A stretch of DNA of 64,000 bases from Acidobacteriota bacterium (GCA_012103255.1 WLXD01000001.1:496001-560000); one strand, 5' to 3'; counted from the first letter of the stretch, positions 39,690 to 49,902 are shown. The notes: generated by a model from the letters alone, not told the origin. Made by a program: numbers and translations.

Positions 39690-41386
39690 CGCGACTCCTC
39701 AGTCGGCTCCAGGCGTGCGGCCTGGATCGCGAACTTGGTGCGCAGGAATCCGGCAGGTGACGTCTTCAGTTGCCGGAGCCACATGTCGGTCATCTGGTCG
39801 TCGGTGAACGCTGCCATCTCGACTTCGCCTTCCTCACCCTGGTCCTCGTCGAGGTCGAACTCGATCTGGTCGGCCGAGAAGGTGGGCTGCCCCTGGCCCT
39901 GCGGCGGCGCTTCCGGTTCAGGGGGAATCAGTGAGGCCACGAGTTCGCGATTCGCCTCAGCCTCGGCCCACCCAGGCCGCTGCTCGAGCGCCTGGTCGTA
40001 CGCTGCGATCGCGAGTTCGAGTTCGCCTTTCTGGGCGTAGGCGTTGCCCAGGTTGTAGGAGCCTCCAGCGGTGGTGATCGCGGCGAAAGCACTGATCGCC
40101 CCGTCCCAGTCGGCTGCCCGATACGCGGCCACGCCGCGCCAGTGTTGGTCCTCGAAGCGCTCTGCCGCCGCAGCGAAGTTGCCCTGCTCGAGCAGGCGGC
40201 GCCCCTGCTGGTCCGGTGTCCACCACAGATCGGTCCACCGCTCCTGCCAGGTCGGTTCCGCTTCGACGGGAGTTGCCGGCAGCTCCTCCTCGGACTCGTC
40301 CTGCGCGCCGAGCGGTATGGGCAGCGCCAGTCCGGCAAGGAGCGTCGCCGCGCCGAGCCCCGCGAGAACCTGCTCCCAGCGCACCGTCCAGCCTCGGCGG
40401 AACCAGAGCAGCCCAAGCAACGCGACGGGCCACGTGAGCCAGTAGCCAGCGTCATGCCAGCGCTGCGTGGCATCTTCTTCGATCGCGTTCTCGAGATGGC
40501 TTTGCGTTCGCGCTACCAGTCGGTTCACGTCGGTGTCGTCGATCGTTGCCCGTGTGACGTAGACGTCGGCAACCGACTCCAGGGCGTCGAACTCTTCCGG
40601 ATCCAGGCGGCTGATCACGCGCTGCCCGTTCTCGACCAGGAAGTCGCTTTCGCCGCGCCGGATCGGGCCGCCCTGTTCCGTGCCGATGGCGAGTACCAAC
40701 GCCTGGTGTGGTGACCCGGCGAGGGCTGTCGCGACCGCGTCGGCATCGGTATCGCCGCCGCCCGTCACGACCACCACGGTGCCGGCCACGTCCTGTCGGT
40801 CGAGAGTCGTCAACGACTGCTCGAGCGCCGCTGCCATGTCGGTGCCGGGCACGGGCATCAGGTTGGTTGCGAGTGCGTCCAGGAAGGTCGCGTAGATCTC
40901 GGGATCTTCAGTGGGCGGCAGCACGAGATGCGCGGTGCCTGCGTAGGCCAGCAGTCCGGTCTTGGCACCGGGGCGCGCTGCAACAAAGTCGCGGATTTTT
41001 TGTTTGGCGTGGTCGAGCCGCGTCGGCTGCAGGTCGATTGCGTCCATCGACCGCGACAGGTCGAGTGCGACCATCACGGGCGCCGTGTCGGTGGCGAAGG
41101 GCGACGGCTCCCGCCGCCAGCTCGGCCCGGCCGCCCCGACGATCGACATGACCAGCAGGAGCACGACGAGGTGTATCGGGCGGAAGCCACCGCGCGCCGC
41201 GCGCGGGTCGACGATTAGGTGTTCCAGCAGATGCGGTGCGATGAGTTGGCTGAAGCGGCGCACGGGGTCGTCCGAGCGGCGCTGCAACCACCAGAGGAGG
41301 GCTACCGGGAACAGGGCGATCAACCATGCCGGGCGCAAGAAGTGCAGCGACTCGAGCGCGGTCCAGAACGCGGCGGACTCAGGCAT
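39686..41386 (-). CDS. batB: BatB/BatC fusion: VWA domain plus TPR
   Basis: A 566-residue protein that combines two usual Bat genes. Two N-terminal helices precede the VWA domain (about 100-300) with an intact MIDAS start VMVALDLSRSMD (Asp109, Ser111, Ser113) and further ligands near VVVTGGGDTDAD. After a third helix (about 330-355), a TPR region follows: AAERFEDQHWRGVAAYRAAD, then YNLGNAYAQKGELELAIAAY. The tail is acidic (EFDLDEDQGEEGEVEM). In most species the TPR part is a separate BatC. The start at 41386 overlaps the BatA stop by eight bases and fits the family; an upstream in-frame start to 41413 adds only nine residues. Confidence 0.88.
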   Translation of the reverse strand: MPESAAFWTALESLHFLRPAWLIALFPVALLWWLQRRSDDPVRRFSQLIAPHLLEHLIVDPRAARGGFRPIHLVVLLLVMSIVGAAGPSWRREPSPFATDTAPVMVALDLSRSMDAIDLQPTRLDHAKQKIRDFVAARPGAKTGLLAYAGTAHLVLPPTEDPEIYATFLDALATNLMPVPGTDMAAALEQSLTTLDRQDVAGTVVVVTGGGDTDADAVATALAGSPHQALVLAIGTEQGGPIRRGESDFLVENGQRVISRLDPEEFDALESVADVYVTRATIDDTDVNRLVARTQSHLENAIEEDATQRWHDAGYWLTWPVALLGLLWFRRGWTVRWEQVLAGLGAATLLAGLALPIPLGAQDESEEELPATPVEAEPTWQERWTDLWWTPDQQGRRLLEQGNFAAAAERFEDQHWRGVAAYRAADWDGAISAFAAITTAGGSYNLGNAYAQKGELELAIAAYDQALEQRPGWAEAEANRELVASLIPPEPEAPPQGQGQPTFSADQIEFDLDEDQGEEGEVEMAAFTDDQMTDMWLRQLKTSPAGFLRTKFAIQAARLEPTEESR

Positions 41387-42368
41387 TGGCCGTCCCCCGT
41401 GTTGCGGCTCCACGCAGGAGCATGAGGAGCTGGTACAGGAGTGTCAGCACGGCGGCGGCGCCGAGCGGGAAGTGGAACAACTGACGGCGGGGCCTGTAGC
41501 TCAGCACGTCGAGCTGCTGCGGCTGCAGGCGATCGATCTCGGAGTAAACCGCTTCGAGTTCGTCACGATTGGCCGCGGCGAAGAACTGCCCGCCCGTCAC
41601 GGTGCTCATCGATGTGAGCGTGTCGATGTCCAGCGGCGCCTCGCCAGCCGACTCCGGGTCGCCAACGCCGATCGTGTAGATCTTGATGTCGTGGTCTGCT
41701 GCCAGTTCGGCCGCCTTGCGGGGCGTGACCCGGCTACCCGTGTCATTGCCATCGGTCAGCAGCACGAGTACGCGGTCGTCGGTTTCGGCGGCATCGAAGT
41801 GCTTGATGGCGAGCCCCACCGCGTCGCCGAGCATGGTCTGTGGGCCAGCCATGGCGACCTCTGTTTCGTCCAGCAGCATTCGAACCAGGTCGTGATCGAG
41901 TGTGAAGGGCGCCTGGATATAGGCCGCGTTGCCGAACACGATCATCCCGATGCGATCGCCCTGGCGTCGTTCGATGAATCCGTCGAGCACCGACTTCACC
42001 GCGGTAAGTCGGTCGGTACGCTCGTCGTCCGCCGTGAAGAAGTCGCGCTCCGCCATCGAACCGGAAAGATCGATGGCGAGCATCAGGTCACGCGCAGCCT
42101 GTTGCCGTTCGATGGGGTCCTCGACCCAGGCCGGTCGAGCAACCGCAAGGACGAGCAGTATCCAGACGACTGGCGCGACCAGCAACTGGAACCAGTTGCG
42201 CCGGGCGACCACTGCTCCCGGTTGTGGCTGCACGCCGAGCACGTTGGCGATCTGTCGGAAGAACGGAGCGCGCACACCCGCGCGGCGCTCCTTGTATGCA
42301 GGAAGCAAAAGCATCAAGAGAGGCGCAGGCAAGAGCCAGAGTGCGATGGGGAGCCCGAGCTCAAACAT
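41379..42368 (-). CDS. batA: BatA: membrane-anchored VWA-domain protein
   Basis: A 329-residue protein. Two N-terminal transmembrane helices, a VWA domain (about 92-285) with a complete MIDAS motif AIDLSGSMAE (Asp100, Ser102, Ser104), TMLGDAVG (the Thr ligand) and VLLTDGNDTGS (the Asp ligand), and one C-terminal helix (FPLGAAAVLTLLYQLLMLL). This is the standard BatA architecture; it should bind a metal and a partner protein under MoxR control. It overlaps DUF4381 upstream and BatB/C downstream by eight bases each. Confidence 0.92.
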   Translation of the reverse strand: MFELGLPIALWLLPAPLLMLLLPAYKERRAGVRAPFFRQIANVLGVQPQPGAVVARRNWFQLLVAPVVWILLVLAVARPAWVEDPIERQQAARDLMLAIDLSGSMAERDFFTADDERTDRLTAVKSVLDGFIERRQGDRIGMIVFGNAAYIQAPFTLDHDLVRMLLDETEVAMAGPQTMLGDAVGLAIKHFDAAETDDRVLVLLTDGNDTGSRVTPRKAAELAADHDIKIYTIGVGDPESAGEAPLDIDTLTSMSTVTGGQFFAAANRDELEAVYSEIDRLQPQQLDVLSYRPRRQLFHFPLGAAAVLTLLYQLLMLLRGAATRGTANA

Positions 42369-42816
42369 CGTCGATCACCCCGCTGCGCCTGTGATGAGTC
42401 GCCAGCCACTGACGTGCGTAGGGCAGCACCTGGTGGCCGTCACGCGTATCGCGTCCATAGCCATCGGCCAGGACCGCTGCGACCTGCTCGCTCGGCTCAG
42501 GAGCGCCTCTCGCTTTGCCGAGGAACGTGGCCCAGTTCGCGCCGGTCAACGTGGCGACCTCGTCGCGCGAGTACGCCACCATCGCGGCTCTCTTCAGGAT
42601 CGCGTTCACCTGGCCGGTTGTGGGCCGCGCGAGTTCGTCGAGTTCACGCAGCGCCTCTCGGCGGTACGCGTTGGCCACGCGATGCCGGTGAGCCCGCCAC
42701 GCGGCCGCGGCAATCGTGATCACAACGGCCGCGAGCAATAGCCACCACCCGATTGTCTGCGGCGTCCAGGGAATCTGAGCGGGCTCCACGATGTCGGCCA
42801 GTTGGTCGAGATTCAT
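42361..42816 (-). CDS. DUF4381 protein of the MoxR/Bat operon
   Basis: A 151-residue protein with the DUF4381 layout: a short periplasmic N-terminus (LADIVEPAQIPWTPQTIGWW), one transmembrane helix (LLLAAVVITIAAAAW) and a cytoplasmic helical part (YRREALRELDELARPTTGQV, then ILKRAAMVAYSRDEVATLTG). It is found between DUF58 and BatA in gammaproteobacterial operons of this kind and probably belongs to the same complex. The start at 42816 overlaps the DUF58 stop (ATGA). Confidence 0.88.
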   Translation of the reverse strand: MNLDQLADIVEPAQIPWTPQTIGWWLLLAAVVITIAAAAWRAHRHRVANAYRREALRELDELARPTTGQVNAILKRAAMVAYSRDEVATLTGANWATFLGKARGAPEPSEQVAAVLADGYGRDTRDGHQVLPYARQWLATHHRRSGVIDDV

Positions 42817-43732
42817 CGCGATACTCCGACGCCCAGCAGATGCCGGATCTGGTCGAGGGCCGGCTCCGCGGTCGACAGCGGCAACATCGTGGCGCCGGTT
42901 GCCTGCTGCCACCCGAGAACATCGGCAATGCGGTCGGCGCCGAAGTCAGCTACGCGCCGGCGCGCGCTACTTCCCTCGAGCTCGACCTGAAGCTCGCCGT
43001 CGCTGATCACGAACTCGCCGACGAGCGGAAGGTCGGTGGCCGACGGATCGTGCACGACTACGCCGACAACATCGTTGTTGCGGGCGAGCCGCAGCATCCG
43101 GCGCTGCGCCGCCTCGTGGTCGACGTCGAAGTCGCTGATGATCACAACCAAGAAGTCGTGGCTGGCGAGCCGTTCCGCGGCGGCGAGGGCCTGGTCGAGC
43201 ATTGCGGGGGCGGGCTCCACCACAGCATCGGCATGCATCGCCGTGTTGCGGTCGGTGACGGCGCTCAGCAGCTGCATCGCCGCAGTGCGACTTCGTTGCG
43301 GCCGGACCTCGGTCATCGACGTGTCGTCGAACACGATGCCGCCTACGCGATCGTCGCCAGCGAGGGCGGTCCAGGCGAGAACGGCCGCGGCTTCGGCGGC
43401 TGTTACGGACTTGAGGTCTCGCACGGTCCCCAGTACATGCTCATGCGCTGATCGACGAGCAACAGCACCGGCCGTTCGCGTTCCTCGGTGTAGACCCGCA
43501 CATGCGGTTCGCCGGTACGCGCCGTGACGCGCCAGTCGATGGTGCGGATATCGTCGCCCGGCAGATAGCCGCGGATCTCTTCGAAGTCCAGACCACGTCC
43601 GCGCATCCGGGATGCGTGGCGCCCGGCGAGCAGGCTGTGCACGGCTTGCTTTGGCTTCAGGGTGAGGCCGCGAACCTTGTGTTGCAGCCCGGCCAGGCCG
43701 GCCAGTTCGACGTGGGCTCCGGTGGACGCCAT
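42813..43732 (-). pseudogene. DUF58 protein of the MoxR/Bat operon, split by a one-base frameshift
   Basis: A DUF58 (VWA-like) protein in two frames. The 5' part (43732 to about 43430) carries the family core GRGLDFEEIRGYLPGDDIRT, then IDWRVTARTG and VLLLVDQRMSMYWG. It then runs into a stop at 43403. The 3' part continues from about 43425 as VRDLKSVTAAEAAAVLAW and ends normally at 42813. The break coincides with a run of four G (CCCC at 43428-43431 on the plus strand). One more G would give MYWGTVRDLKSVTA and an intact 306-residue protein. All neighbours are intact and overlapping, which makes a read or assembly error likely. Confidence 0.88.
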
Positions 43733-43736
43733 CAGA

Positions 43737-44732
43737 TCAGGCGACGGCGACCTGCTTCACGAGCGCGGCGATCACATCGTCAGCGCTGGCACCGGCCGCG
43801 TTGGCTTCGTAGCTCAGTTTCACTCGGTGTCGCAGGCAGTCGTGCGCGATCGCGCGGATGTCGTCCGGCGTCACGTGGTCGCGGCCCTCGAGCCAGGCAT
43901 GGGCTCGGGAAGCGCGATCGAGCGCGAGGCCGCCGCGCGGGCTAGCTCCCACCTCAATCTGGCGACCGAGGTCCTCGTCATACTTCGCTGGGAATCGCGT
44001 CGCGTCGATCAGATCGACGATGTACCGATCCACGGCGTCGCTCACGTGGATGGCGAAGATCTCGTTGCGGGCCTCGAAAACGACGTCCTGTGCCAGCGTC
44101 GATTCGTCGCCGGCTTCATCGGCACCTTCTTTCTTCGTCGCAGCGGCTTGGGCGGCCTCTTCGCTGCGCACCAGTTGGATCACGTTGACCTCGTCATCGG
44201 CGTCGGGGTACTCGATCTGTACGTGCATCAGGAACCGGTCGAGCTGGGCTTCAGGCAACGGATACGTGCCCTCTTGCTCGATCGGGTTCTGCGTGGCCAT
44301 GACAATGAACAGCGGCGGGAGCTTGTGCGTCGTGCCGGCAACGGTGATTTGCCGCTCCTCCATCGCCTCGAGCAGCGCTGCTTGAACTTTGGCAGGCGCC
44401 CGGTTGATCTCGTCGGCCAGCACAACGTTGGCGAACAGCGGACCGGGATCGAAACGGAACTCGCCGCCGCCGTCGCTCTGGTAGTAGACCTCGGTGCCGG
44501 TGATATCAGAGGGCAGCAGATCGGGCGTGAACTGGATGCGCGAGAAGTCGGCTTCCAGGTGCGTCGCCATCGACTTTACTGCTCGCGTTTTTGCCAGTCC
44601 GGGCAGCCCTTCGAGGAGCAGATTGCCGTTGGCCAGGAGACCGATGAGCAAACGGTCGAGGACGGTCTGCTGGCCGATAATCGCGCCACTCATGCGGTCG
44701 CGGAGCTTCTTGATCTCGGGGAGAGCTGACAC
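43737..44732 (-). CDS. MoxR-family AAA+ ATPase
   Basis: A 331-residue AAA+ chaperone-like ATPase. Walker A is EGLPGLAKTR (Lys48). Walker B is VVLADEINRAP. Sensor 1 is VMATQNPIEQEGTYPLPEAQ, followed by LDRFLM, and sensor 2 lies in GASPRGGLALDRASRA. A charged insert (about 195-220, with KKEGADEAGDES) is extra. MoxR ATPases act with DUF58 and VWA proteins to assemble or activate envelope targets. The GTG start at 44732 has AGGAG upstream; the frame continues further without similarity. It is the first gene of a seven-gene operon and is divergent from the DUF3604 gene. Confidence 0.93.
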   Translation of the reverse strand: MSALPEIKKLRDRMSGAIIGQQTVLDRLLIGLLANGNLLLEGLPGLAKTRAVKSMATHLEADFSRIQFTPDLLPSDITGTEVYYQSDGGGEFRFDPGPLFANVVLADEINRAPAKVQAALLEAMEERQITVAGTTHKLPPLFIVMATQNPIEQEGTYPLPEAQLDRFLMHVQIEYPDADDEVNVIQLVRSEEAAQAAATKKEGADEAGDESTLAQDVVFEARNEIFAIHVSDAVDRYIVDLIDATRFPAKYDEDLGRQIEVGASPRGGLALDRASRAHAWLEGRDHVTPDDIRAIAHDCLRHRVKLSYEANAAGASADDVIAALVKQVAVA

Positions 44733-44867
44733 CGGACTCCTCGTGCGTTGTAGAGCTTCGAGTTTCGATGGCCATCCTCGCGCGCGCAAAGAGACCAGAC
44801 CACGCCCGCAGCGGGATACAATCCCAACCCCCTGCTCAGACCCCTATGCCCAACCCCTGGAGGTTCC

Positions 44868-46825: not shown

Positions 46826-46850
46826 ACGGGGGCTTCGGCCCCCGTTTTTC
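46826..46850 (+). terminator. Intrinsic terminator after the DUF3604 gene
   Basis: An eight-bp stem ACGGGGGC/GCCCCCGT closed by a TTCG tetraloop and followed by TTTTC, 30 bases after the stop. This is the clearest rho-independent terminator in the window. Confidence 0.92.
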
Positions 46851-46900: not shown

Positions 46901-46922
46901 GTGAAGGTTTCGTGATACCTGC
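46901..46922 (+). promoter_or_regulatory. Direct-repeat operator of the two-component system
   Basis: GTGAAGGTTTC and GTGATACCTGC begin at 46901 and 46912, an 11-bp period as for OmpR/PhoB-family response regulators. A degenerate third unit (GTCC) begins at 46923. The first unit is almost identical to the first unit of the four-repeat array at 49149. It ends 16 bases before the response-regulator start, which suggests autoregulation. Confidence 0.7.
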
Positions 46923-46938
46923 GTCCTAGGGTCTTGCC

Positions 46939-47667
46939 ATGCTTGCCGAACAACTCCCCCGTGAATCGATTCTCGTCGTCGAGGACGAGCCCGAGCTGGC
47001 CCAGTTGCTGCAGCTCAACTTCGACCCCATGGGATTCGATGTCGAGATCGCGCCGCGCCTGGACGCCGCGCGCCGCGCGCTGCGCCAGCGCGACCACGCT
47101 CTGGTGATTCTCGACCTCACGCTGCCCGACGGTGATGGCCTCGACCTGTGTCGCGAGCTTCGCCAGGCGGAGGACTACACCCCGATTCTCATTCTGACCG
47201 CGCGCTCGGATGAAACGGATCGGGTGGTGGGACTGGAGCTCGGCGCGGATGACTACCTCGTGAAGCCGTTCGCCGTTCGCGAGTTGACCGCGCGAGTTCG
47301 GGCGATCCGGCGCCGCGTTGCGCTCTCGACTCAGGTGCGCCAGGCGCCCGATAGTCGGCTCGTGTTCGATGGGCTCGAAGTCGACCCGTCGAGCCGCCGC
47401 GTCCTCGTTGCCGGTCAGCCCGCAGAGCTAACCGCTACGGAGTTCGACCTGCTGCTGCATCTGGCTTCGAACCCGGGTCGGGTCTACACCCGCGCGCAGT
47501 TGCTCGATCGGGTCTGGGGCGACGAGTACGGCACCCAGGAGCATGCGGTCAACGCCGGTGTGAACCGGCTGCGGGCGAAGATCGAGATCGATCCCGGTGA
47601 ACCGCGCTTCGTGCGCACCGTGTGGGGTGTTGGCTACCGATTCTTCGACCCGAAGGACGAATCATGA
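46939..47667 (+). CDS. OmpR/PhoB-family response regulator
   Basis: A 242-residue regulator. The receiver domain has acidic pocket Glu15-Asp16 (VVEDEP), phospho-acceptor Asp59 (ILDLTLPDGDG), Thr87 and Lys109 (DDYLVKPF). The winged-helix domain spans about 140-240 (ELTATEFDLLLHLASNPGRV, then RAQLLDRVWG and the recognition helix HAVNAGVNRLRAKIE). It should bind GTGA direct repeats found upstream of itself and of the spondin gene. The start codon lies very close to the presumed operator, so its leader must be short. It overlaps the kinase gene by four bases. Confidence 0.94.
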   Translation: MLAEQLPRESILVVEDEPELAQLLQLNFDPMGFDVEIAPRLDAARRALRQRDHALVILDLTLPDGDGLDLCRELRQAEDYTPILILTARSDETDRVVGLELGADDYLVKPFAVRELTARVRAIRRRVALSTQVRQAPDSRLVFDGLEVDPSSRRVLVAGQPAELTATEFDLLLHLASNPGRVYTRAQLLDRVWGDEYGTQEHAVNAGVNRLRAKIEIDPGEPRFVRTVWGVGYRFFDPKDES

Positions 47668-49124
47668 TGCCGCGATCGCTCTTCGCAAGATTGACGCTGG
47701 CGCTTGCCGGAATCCTGTTCATTCTTGGCGCCGGATTCCTGCTGCTCACGGTGCGAACGAGTCAGATGTACGAGCAGGAGATGCAGCAACGACTGCATCG
47801 CGAGCTCGCCGCGCACGTGGCCTCGGTGTACGAGCTGTTCGAGCCGGAGGGCGTCAATCAGCAGTCGCTGGAGACGCTGTTTACGGAGTTGATGCACGTG
47901 AACCCCGCCATAGAGGTCTACCTGCTCAACCCGAGCGGCGAGATCCTGTCCTACTCCGCGCCCGAGGGTCAGGTGGTGCGGAGTCGCGTGTCGCTGGCGC
48001 CGGTTCAGCGTTTCCTGGAGTCGGGCCCCGAAGGCCCGATCGTGGGCGACGATCCTCGCTCCGATGGCACCAAGGTGTTCTCCGCGGCGCCGGTTACGCG
48101 CGACGGCGTGCTACTTGGCTACATGTACGTTGTGCTCGCCAGTCAGATCTACGACGGCGTCGCAGGAACTCTCGCACAGAGCTACATGTTGCGGCTCGCC
48201 GCCTGGATCGCTCTCGCCGTCTTGCTCCTGAGTGCCCTGGCAGGGGCCGTGCTCTTCTACCGGATGACGCGACCACTGGCCGCGCTCGATGAGGCCATGC
48301 GGGCGTTCACCGGCTCGATGGCCGAGGACGACTCGGGTCCGGATCGGTCGCCCGAGCGCGACGAAATCGGTGGGCTACAGAGTTCATTCGACGAGATGGC
48401 AGCCACCATCCGCCGCCAGGTGGAAGCGCTCGGGGCAGCCGACCGTTCGCGGCGCGAGCTCGTGGCGAACGTTTCCCATGACCTGCGAACGCCGCTGGCG
48501 CACATGACCGGCTACCTCGAGACGCTGCGACTGCAGTGGGACGATTTGCCCGCGGACCGTCGCGCCGAGTATCTGGAGGTCGCGGTTCGACACGGCGAGC
48601 GTCTCTCGGGTCTTGTGGACGAGTTGTTCGAGATCTCCAGGCTCGACACGCTCGAGGACCTCGTTCGACTCGAACGCTTCTGCATAGACGAACTGGTGCG
48701 CGATGTGGCCCGCCGCTATCGGCTCGTGGCAGAGCGTCGTGGTATTGAGTTCGCGACGCGCGTTCCCGTCACCGAGCTCGAGATGGACGGAGACCCGCAA
48801 TTGATCGAGCGTTCCCTGTCGAACCTGCTCGACAACGCGATGCGTCACACGCCCGACGGCGGGACCATCGAAGTCGCTGCTCGGCGCGAGTCCGGCCGCG
48901 TGCTGCTTTCTATTCGCGACACGGGTGAAGGGATCCCGGTGGAAGAGCAGGGCCGCGTGTTCGAGCGCTTCTATCGCGGATCGACGCACACGAGCGTCGG
49001 CGGCGGTGGTCTCGGACTCGCGATCGCCAAACGAGCCATCGAACTGCATCGCGGCGAGATCGACTTCTCGAGCGCTCCAGGGCTCGGGACGACCTTCCAC
49101 GTCGAGCTGCCTGCTGCGGTGTAG
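47664..49124 (+). CDS. Sensor histidine kinase
   Basis: A 486-residue membrane kinase, partner of the preceding regulator. TM1 is at 9-30, a periplasmic sensor domain at about 31-175 and TM2 at about 178-200. HAMP starts at about 201, and the H-box NVSHDLRTPLAHMTGYLETL carries phospho-His272. The N-box is LSNLLDNAMRHTPDGG, with G1 DTGEGIP, F-box VFERFYRG and G2 GGGGLGLAIAKR. All catalytic motifs are complete. The start at 47664 overlaps the regulator stop (ATGA); a second ATG follows directly. The signal is unknown. A small CCGGC/GCCGG hairpin follows the stop (49126-49139). Confidence 0.94.
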   Translation: MMPRSLFARLTLALAGILFILGAGFLLLTVRTSQMYEQEMQQRLHRELAAHVASVYELFEPEGVNQQSLETLFTELMHVNPAIEVYLLNPSGEILSYSAPEGQVVRSRVSLAPVQRFLESGPEGPIVGDDPRSDGTKVFSAAPVTRDGVLLGYMYVVLASQIYDGVAGTLAQSYMLRLAAWIALAVLLLSALAGAVLFYRMTRPLAALDEAMRAFTGSMAEDDSGPDRSPERDEIGGLQSSFDEMAATIRRQVEALGAADRSRRELVANVSHDLRTPLAHMTGYLETLRLQWDDLPADRRAEYLEVAVRHGERLSGLVDELFEISRLDTLEDLVRLERFCIDELVRDVARRYRLVAERRGIEFATRVPVTELEMDGDPQLIERSLSNLLDNAMRHTPDGGTIEVAARRESGRVLLSIRDTGEGIPVEEQGRVFERFYRGSTHTSVGGGGLGLAIAKRAIELHRGEIDFSSAPGLGTTFHVELPAAV

Positions 49125-49148
49125 TCCGGCTCACGCCGGCCCGCGTCT

Positions 49149-49192
49149 GTGATGGTTTCGTGATGATCCGGTGAGGGCCCGGTGATTTCCGT
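49149..49192 (+). promoter_or_regulatory. Four-copy GTGA direct-repeat operator upstream of the spondin gene
   Basis: GTGA begins at 49149, 49160, 49171 and 49182, exactly 11 bases apart: GTGATGGTTTC, GTGATGATCCG, GTGAGGGCCCG, GTGATTTCCGT. This is the pattern expected for cooperative head-to-tail binding of an OmpR/PhoB-type regulator. It lies between the kinase gene and the spondin gene. The first unit matches that upstream of the regulator at 46901. Confidence 0.78.
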
Positions 49193-49251
49193 TTCGCACA
49201 GTGCACTCGTTCGACGGAATGACCCGTCGACACCACACGGAGTGCATAGAA

Positions 49252-49902
49252 ATGCGCAAGCTCATTGCCCTCGGGGTCGTCGGCGTCAGCCTTCTTCTGA
49301 CGGGAACCGTTTCAGCCCAGGAGACGTATCGGATTCGTCTCACCAATCTCACCCGCGGCCAGATCATGAGCCCGGCGGTGATCGCTGCTCATTCGAGTCA
49401 GATCCGCATGTTCCGGGTAGGGCGACAGGCGAGCCCGGCGCTCGCTGCGCTCGCGGAGGATGCGGACACCTCGGCGCTGACGGCGGCGCTCGATGCGGCC
49501 GGTGCTGACGTTACCGACTACGTCGTGGGCGACGGGGTTCTCATGCCTGGCGAGACCAAGACCTACGAGATCACCATCGCGGCTGGCGACTACCTGAGCC
49601 TCGCCTCGATGCTCGTCACCAGCAACGACGCCTTCGCCGGTGTCGATAGCTACGACCTCTCCGGACTCATGGGCCGCAAGAGCTTCACGGTGCCCGCCTA
49701 CGATTCCGGAAGCGAGAACAACAGCGAGAACTGCGCCTACATCCCGGGGCCGCCCTGCGGTAACGGCGGCGCGCGCGACACCAAGGGTCGCGAGGGCTTC
49801 GTGCACATCCACGCCGGCATCCGCGGCGATGGCGACATCTCGAAGACGAACTACGACTGGCGCAACCCGGTGATGCGGGTGGAGCTGCTCCCCGGCAAGT
49901 AG
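49252..49902 (+). CDS. Exported spondin-domain protein
   Basis: A 216-residue exported protein. Signal peptide 1-22 (LGVVGVSLLLTGTVSA). The spondin_N-like domain is ETYRIRLTNLTRGQIMSPAV near the N-terminus, VLMPGETKTYEITIAAGDYL, then LSLASMLVTSNDAFAG and the C-terminal FVHIHAGIRGDGDI. Bacterial spondin proteins are secreted or surface beta-sandwich proteins, probably metal-binding, with unknown roles. GGAG lies nine bases before the ATG. The four-repeat operator just upstream makes it the probable main target of the adjacent two-component system. Confidence 0.85.
   Translation: MRKLIALGVVGVSLLLTGTVSAQETYRIRLTNLTRGQIMSPAVIAAHSSQIRMFRVGRQASPALAALAEDADTSALTAALDAAGADVTDYVVGDGVLMPGETKTYEITIAAGDYLSLASMLVTSNDAFAGVDSYDLSGLMGRKSFTVPAYDSGSENNSENCAYIPGPPCGNGGARDTKGREGFVHIHAGIRGDGDISKTNYDWRNPVMRVELLPGK

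Follow-up and report, generated by a model that had tools for sequence, protein, structure and literature searches.

Genes and features of the locus

The window (the whole stretch of 64,000 nucleotides that was analysed, from an Acidobacteriota genome of about 4.8 Mb) contained, in this order, a DUF3604 gene, a response regulator gene, a sensor histidine kinase gene, a spondin gene and a convergent Porin_O_P gene. The regulator gene (46939-47667, plus strand) encoded a receiver domain (Response_reg, PF00072; 94 bits, cut-off 30) followed by a winged-helix domain (Trans_reg_C, PF00486; 90 bits, cut-off 26), which placed its product in the OmpR/PhoB family, with EHAVNAGVNRLR as the recognition helix. 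The kinase gene (47664-49124, plus strand) overlapped the regulator gene and encoded HisKA and HATPase_c domains together with a periplasmic sensor domain, modelled as PDC/PAS-like (pLDDT 78); solved PAS/PDC sensors, among them 3cwf, DctB and CusS (5ku5), were matched weakly in fold.

The product of the spondin gene (49252-49902, plus strand) scored 148.2 bits with NF038123 (cut-off 40) and 38 bits with PF06468 (cut-off 24), and a Sec-type signal peptide, MRKLIALGVVGVSLLLTGTVSA (49252-49317, plus strand), was predicted from its translation. Its structure model (pLDDT 90.8) had the Spondin_N / F-spondin fold and matched the solved domains 3d34 and 3q13; for the mindin domain 3d34 the E value was 5e-12 in the structural comparison and 4e-9 in the profile search. 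A second spondin-domain gene of the host genome (G000:C4:188172-188677; loci L001, L002 and L031) was a much better match to PF06468 (107 bits), and tblastn found no such two-component pair near it.

A GC-rich hairpin with a T tract, ACGGGGGCTTCGGCCCCCGTTTTT (46826-46849, plus strand), was read directly from the sequence and was missing from the output of a simple scan; it is probably the terminator of the upstream DUF3604 gene and would insulate the regulator promoter. Ahead of the DUF3604 gene, translations indicated a MoxR/DUF58/VWA-type (Bat-like) cluster on the minus strand (41379-44789).

Predicted GTGA operators and promoter geometry

The sequence-only reading had placed GTGA units 11 bp apart before the regulator and the spondin genes, and all six positions were exact. 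Predicted operator units 1 to 4 of the spondin promoter occupied 49149-49152, 49160-49163, 49171-49174 and 49182-49185, the last being promoter-proximal and in the -35 region, and the two predicted units of the regulator promoter occupied 46901-46904 and 46912-46915 (all plus strand). The genome scan for GTGA-N7-GTGA-N7-GTGA that the same reading had proposed matched only 49149 and 49160, which overlap inside the spondin array, and the reversed pattern had 0 matches genome-wide. With one mismatch at most, GTGANGGTTTCGTGA matched only 46901 and 49149 in the 4.8-Mb genome.

Two genomes of the same genus (G002, loci L025/L033; G001, loci L026/L034) retained the regulator-kinase-spondin order and both operators. 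Across the three species 16/16 GTGA bases of the spondin array were invariant, all four units included, against 12/28 linker bases; the regulator site, with both of its units kept in L033 and L034, read GTGAAGGTTTCGTGATA, GTGAACCTTTCGTGATA and GTGAACCTTTTGTGATA.

Pairs of the form GTGA-N7-GTGA were common by themselves, with five occurrences in the window on either strand (four of them the reported units) against 2.2 expected per window, which would suit two unrelated short repeats arising by chance in GC-rich intergenic DNA. Expected numbers per whole genome from dinucleotide composition were about 0.003 for exact four-unit chains and about 0.7 for three-unit chains. Chance has a negligible probability: against it stand the uniqueness of the sites in the genome and their conservation in the congeners, and the cross-phylum conservation described below refuted it.

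A predicted -10 element lay 15 bp past the start of the last GTGA unit at both promoters: TAGGGT (46927-46932, plus strand) after unit 2 of the regulator site, and CACAGT (49197-49202, plus strand; CATAGT/GATAGT in the congeners) after unit 4 of the spondin site. The regulator -10 ended 6 nt before the ATG in the window and in both congeners, so that the regulator mRNA is probably leaderless. Neither promoter yielded a -35/-10 pair in a simple sigma-70 scan; an activator is therefore likely to be needed. At E. coli phoA, in the sequence located just upstream of the gene, the distance from GTCA to TATAGT was also 15, and by this analogy the spacing between GTGA and -10 is the one expected where an activator takes the place of the -35 element.

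Some OmpR-family regulators repress from sites overlapping the -35 region, and the proximal unit here overlaps that region, so the bound regulator could instead block RNA polymerase. Repression was nevertheless judged improbable, given the lack of a -35/-10 pair at either promoter in the simple scan and a -10 spacing identical to PhoB's at phoA, where the promoter is activated. Activation is the preferred reading of both sites.

Arrays in distant relatives

The spondin alignment was scanned against one genome per species, which gave 375 relatives, and the best 80 of the 375 were kept. Among these 80, an adjoining regulator and kinase of the same type were present in 39 (regulator identity 48-76%). 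In a motif-free count of 256 tetramers at 36 periods (5 to 40) over the 300 bp upstream of spondin in the 80 loci, GTGA at period 11 ranked first of all tetramer/period pairs (46/80), followed by GTGA at periods 22 (37) and 33 (24). Shuffled sequences averaged 0.34 (best 4), and the count was 0 in a control region lying 1.5 kb upstream. The period of 11, with its harmonics at 22 and 33, corresponds to about one helical turn between half-sites, as in the head-to-tail operators of OmpR/PhoB regulators. The same test with a 320 bp window in a second sample, whole genomes of one class, found the array in 17/21 new loci and the reversed word in 0/30.

Spondin promoters usually had two to four GTGA units. 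A two-unit GTGA site with the consensus GTGATACTTTYGTGAtA stood at the own promoter of 31/39 linked regulators, TANNNT began 15 bp past the start of the last GTGA in 24/32 regulator sites, and xAnnnT occurred at the same 15-bp offset from the last GTGA at spondin promoters. Arrays, period, -10 distance and recognition helix were conserved as a set in Acidobacteriota, Pseudomonadota, Thermodesulfobacteriota and Planctomycetota, and this comparative evidence backs both of the originally proposed operators as predicted binding sites. Retention of the array across several phyla points to a dedicated, apparently undescribed regulon.

About one third of the 80 spondin relatives had neither an adjacent regulator of the GTGA type nor an array; spondin is thus not always tied to the GTGA system. 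At L048 / L027 a typical regulator and kinase were accompanied by another 11-bp repeat before spondin, standing where the GTGA units would be (GATCGAATCGG twice, then GGACACTC), possibly the product of an operator switch.

Other features of the surveyed loci were recorded separately. Tandem spondin gene pairs occurred in L145, L148, L201 and L205, the second gene sometimes with a lipoprotein-type leader, and in L201 and L205 the regulator came after the tandem pair. An ECF-type sigma factor gene lay downstream of spondin in L066 and L030 (L030 from translation only), both loci without the GTGA system; spondin may therefore have other dedicated regulators. A Y-family DNA polymerase (IMS) gene lay downstream of spondin in L060 and L075. 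In the genome of L082 (Endozoicomonas arenosclerae; loci L150 / L174), a GTGA array (L174:9363-9374, minus strand) stood upstream of a gene for an AMP-binding (acyl-activating) enzyme, called from translation only, with the two-component pair about 4 kb away.

Regulator type and unlinked regulators

Nearly all array-linked regulators had the recognition helix EHTVNSHINRLR. The array accompanied 34/39 regulators of the EHTVNSHINRLR type but none of the six regulators next to spondin that had other helices (0/6; Fisher p 6e-5). The window regulator, with EHAVNAGVNRLR, was four positions off the family form and the operator was nonetheless kept. In a regulator tree the rows with other helices fell in two places; CreB and L085 were long branches, and the tree carries no weight.

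Where the spondin array had no linked regulator, 8/11 genomes searched encoded a EHTVNSHINRLR-type regulator elsewhere, four of these with a two-unit site before it; the remaining 3/11 were small, perhaps incomplete assemblies (1.9-2.7 Mb). The rule that absence of a linked kinase means absence of the system was rejected, as it was wrong for most array-bearing genomes, in which the regulator was encoded elsewhere.

Ownership of the GTGA arrays by another DNA-binding protein, with the two-component pair a bystander or one of several regulators, would agree with the minority of linked-regulator loci (5/39, L048 among them) that had no exact adjacent GTGA pair before spondin. Four observations make this account quite improbable: the array tracked regulator type, the same site recurred at the regulator's own promoter, most genomes with an unlinked spondin array encoded the regulator elsewhere, and the period of 11 and the -10 spacing of 15 suit the OmpR/PhoB family. 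The regulator beside the kinase is accordingly preferred as the protein that would bind the arrays.

Neighbouring genes and the possible signal

Genes for MsrAB, MsrA, MsrB or MsrP stood beside spondin in 7/80 loci, each within about 1 kb: MsrAB fusions that looked secreted in L037, L042 and L043, MsrB-MsrA in L092, and MsrP in L100, L102 and L106. Redoxin adjoined spondin in L104 and L102. When 52 neighbour proteins were scanned, MsrA, MsrB and MsrP-type domains topped the family list, and in the second sample redoxin or MsrA was next to spondin in 3/21 new loci. L092 and L106 had another type of two-component regulator and no GTGA array, yet MsrA/MsrB or MsrP was present, so the spondin-Msr link is independent of the GTGA system.

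A blind search for the three-unit pattern over 24 genomes matched spondin arrays, further spondin genes (L145, L147 and L148) and some sites probably due to chance. It also found a four-unit array between a regulator-kinase pair and a redoxin-MsrP operon in G113 (L166), and in G124 an unlinked kinase pair was divergent from MsrAB. In the window's genome, no GTGA operator was found at msrA or at two msrP genes (G000:C5:25821-26774, G000:C1:1305007-1306020), which makes the link to oxidative stress indirect in this genome.

The recurrence of Msr and redoxin genes beside spondin or the kinase gene suggests envelope oxidative stress as the signal. As these genes were repeatedly neighbours or operator carriers, oxidative damage in the envelope is most likely what the kinase senses, at roughly even odds. 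One Met of the sensor domain was invariant in 20 sequences, which is only suggestive as a hint on the signal.

The circuit could also be real and its signal non-oxidative (a metal, a small ligand or a cell-surface stress), the Msr neighbours reflecting a general envelope-stress theme. The sensor model is consistent with this, being generically PDC/PAS-like with weak matches to sensors as varied as DctB and CusS, as is the position of the Msr genes outside the regulon in the window's genome; elsewhere spondin adjoined other genes, for example those for NAD synthase or a DNA polymerase of the Y family. The rank of the Msr-type domains among the scanned neighbours, the two unlinked regulator-kinase pairs adjoining redoxin-MsrP and MsrAB, and, suggestively, the invariant Met argue in the other direction, and a non-oxidative signal was given a little under an even chance. 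A wider proposal is that one OmpR-type class and its GTGA 11-bp code jointly control secreted spondin and the periplasmic repair of methionine sulfoxide (MsrAB, MsrP and redoxin) across phyla, spondin thus being a hitherto unrecognised part of an extracytoplasmic defence against oxidative damage; this is put forward tentatively, at somewhat short of even odds.

Proposed circuit and its meaning

In the circuit favoured here, the partner kinase would phosphorylate the regulator (46939-47667), which would then bind head-to-tail to GTGA units one helical turn (11 bp) apart. The bound regulator would activate two promoters, at each of which the proximal unit, 15 bp ahead of the -10, would stand in for the -35 element in a PhoB-like manner. 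Two units at the regulator's own promoter would give positive autoregulation, and four units at the spondin promoter would make secreted spondin the main output. The kinase would most likely respond to envelope oxidative damage, with spondin acting outside the inner membrane to cope with it.

The sites were exact and conserved, the geometry was shared, the helix matched, and the genes were linked in the genome. Judged from these comparisons, the regulatory part of the circuit, that is, the two-component pair with GTGA operators at regulator and spondin as one regulon conserved across phyla, has a probability of about 0.9. This figure excludes the signal: the Msr neighbours, taken together with the exceptions in the window's genome, keep the oxidative signal at about evens.

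Spondin domains are common among bacteria, with 375 relatives in one scan, and the conserved operator would name a regulator for them and supply a code, readable from the genome, by which the regulon could be found in every bacterium whose genome is sequenced. Through the Msr neighbours, a first testable function is offered for spondin, in oxidative stress of the envelope. With helix and operator changing in step, the system would also serve as a clean, naturally occurring data set on the protein-DNA code of the OmpR family.

Comparison with known systems

Animal mindin (spondin-2) and F-spondin have the fold in common with the bacterial protein, which differs in being a stand-alone secreted domain without thrombospondin repeats. 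No described function for bacterial spondin domains was found in the literature. No report on the regulation of a bacterial spondin gene was found in the literature covered, which was mainly open-access, so that the absence is no proof. A published map of the L-amino-acid oxidase cluster of Pseudoalteromonas luteoviolacea has two Spondin_N genes beside an OmpR regulator and a histidine kinase (PMC6316408); it is a gene map only, with no operator or regulation described (PMC6316408). The claim that a two-component pair controlling spondin had not been described thus held for the regulation, for which no report was found, but not for the gene neighbourhood, which had already been mapped (PMC6316408).

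HprSR (YedVW) of E. coli controls hiuH-msrPQ and responds to reactive chlorine (PMC9302797). It resembles the present system as an OmpR-type two-component system tied to periplasmic MsrP, and the CusS sensor was among the weak fold matches here. HprSR differs in its HprR/CusR box, CATTACAAAATTGTAATG, and in having no spondin. Identity with HprR was rejected, as the window regulator scored 135.8 bits against a cut-off of 353 and no copy of the box with three or fewer mismatches was present in the window.

The cre/blr-tag of CreB/BlrA, TTCAC-N6-TTCAC, has the same period, and its reverse complement is GTGAA-N6-GTGAA. In E. coli creD, however, TTCAC is on the sense strand, the last unit (TTCAA) 15 bp before a -10-like CATAGT, whereas GTGA was on the sense strand at both window promoters, neither of which had TTCAC-N6-TTCAC on that strand ahead of the -10. 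The CreB helix, VDTHIKTLR, also differs, and the window regulator scored 194.2 bits with the CreB model PRK11083 (cut-off 273). Tag orientation relative to the -10 and model scores thus rule out CreB/BlrA membership.

PhoB binds direct repeats with a period of 11 (PMC3978041). The likeness to PhoB and the pho box extends to a receiver plus winged-helix regulator and a proximal half-site that starts 15 bp ahead of the -10, the distance found at phoA. The half-site here is GTGA, not TGTCA, with arrays of up to four units, the helix of the GTGA system is NSHINRLR, and the target is spondin, not phosphate genes; with the PhoB model TIGR02154 the window regulator scored 208.3 bits, below the cut-off of 296.2. 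As read from the sequence, the mechanism is that of an ordinary OmpR/PhoB-type circuit whose regulator is by model scores not PhoB, CreB or HprR, the operator setting it apart from CreB and HprR, and the helix from CreB only.
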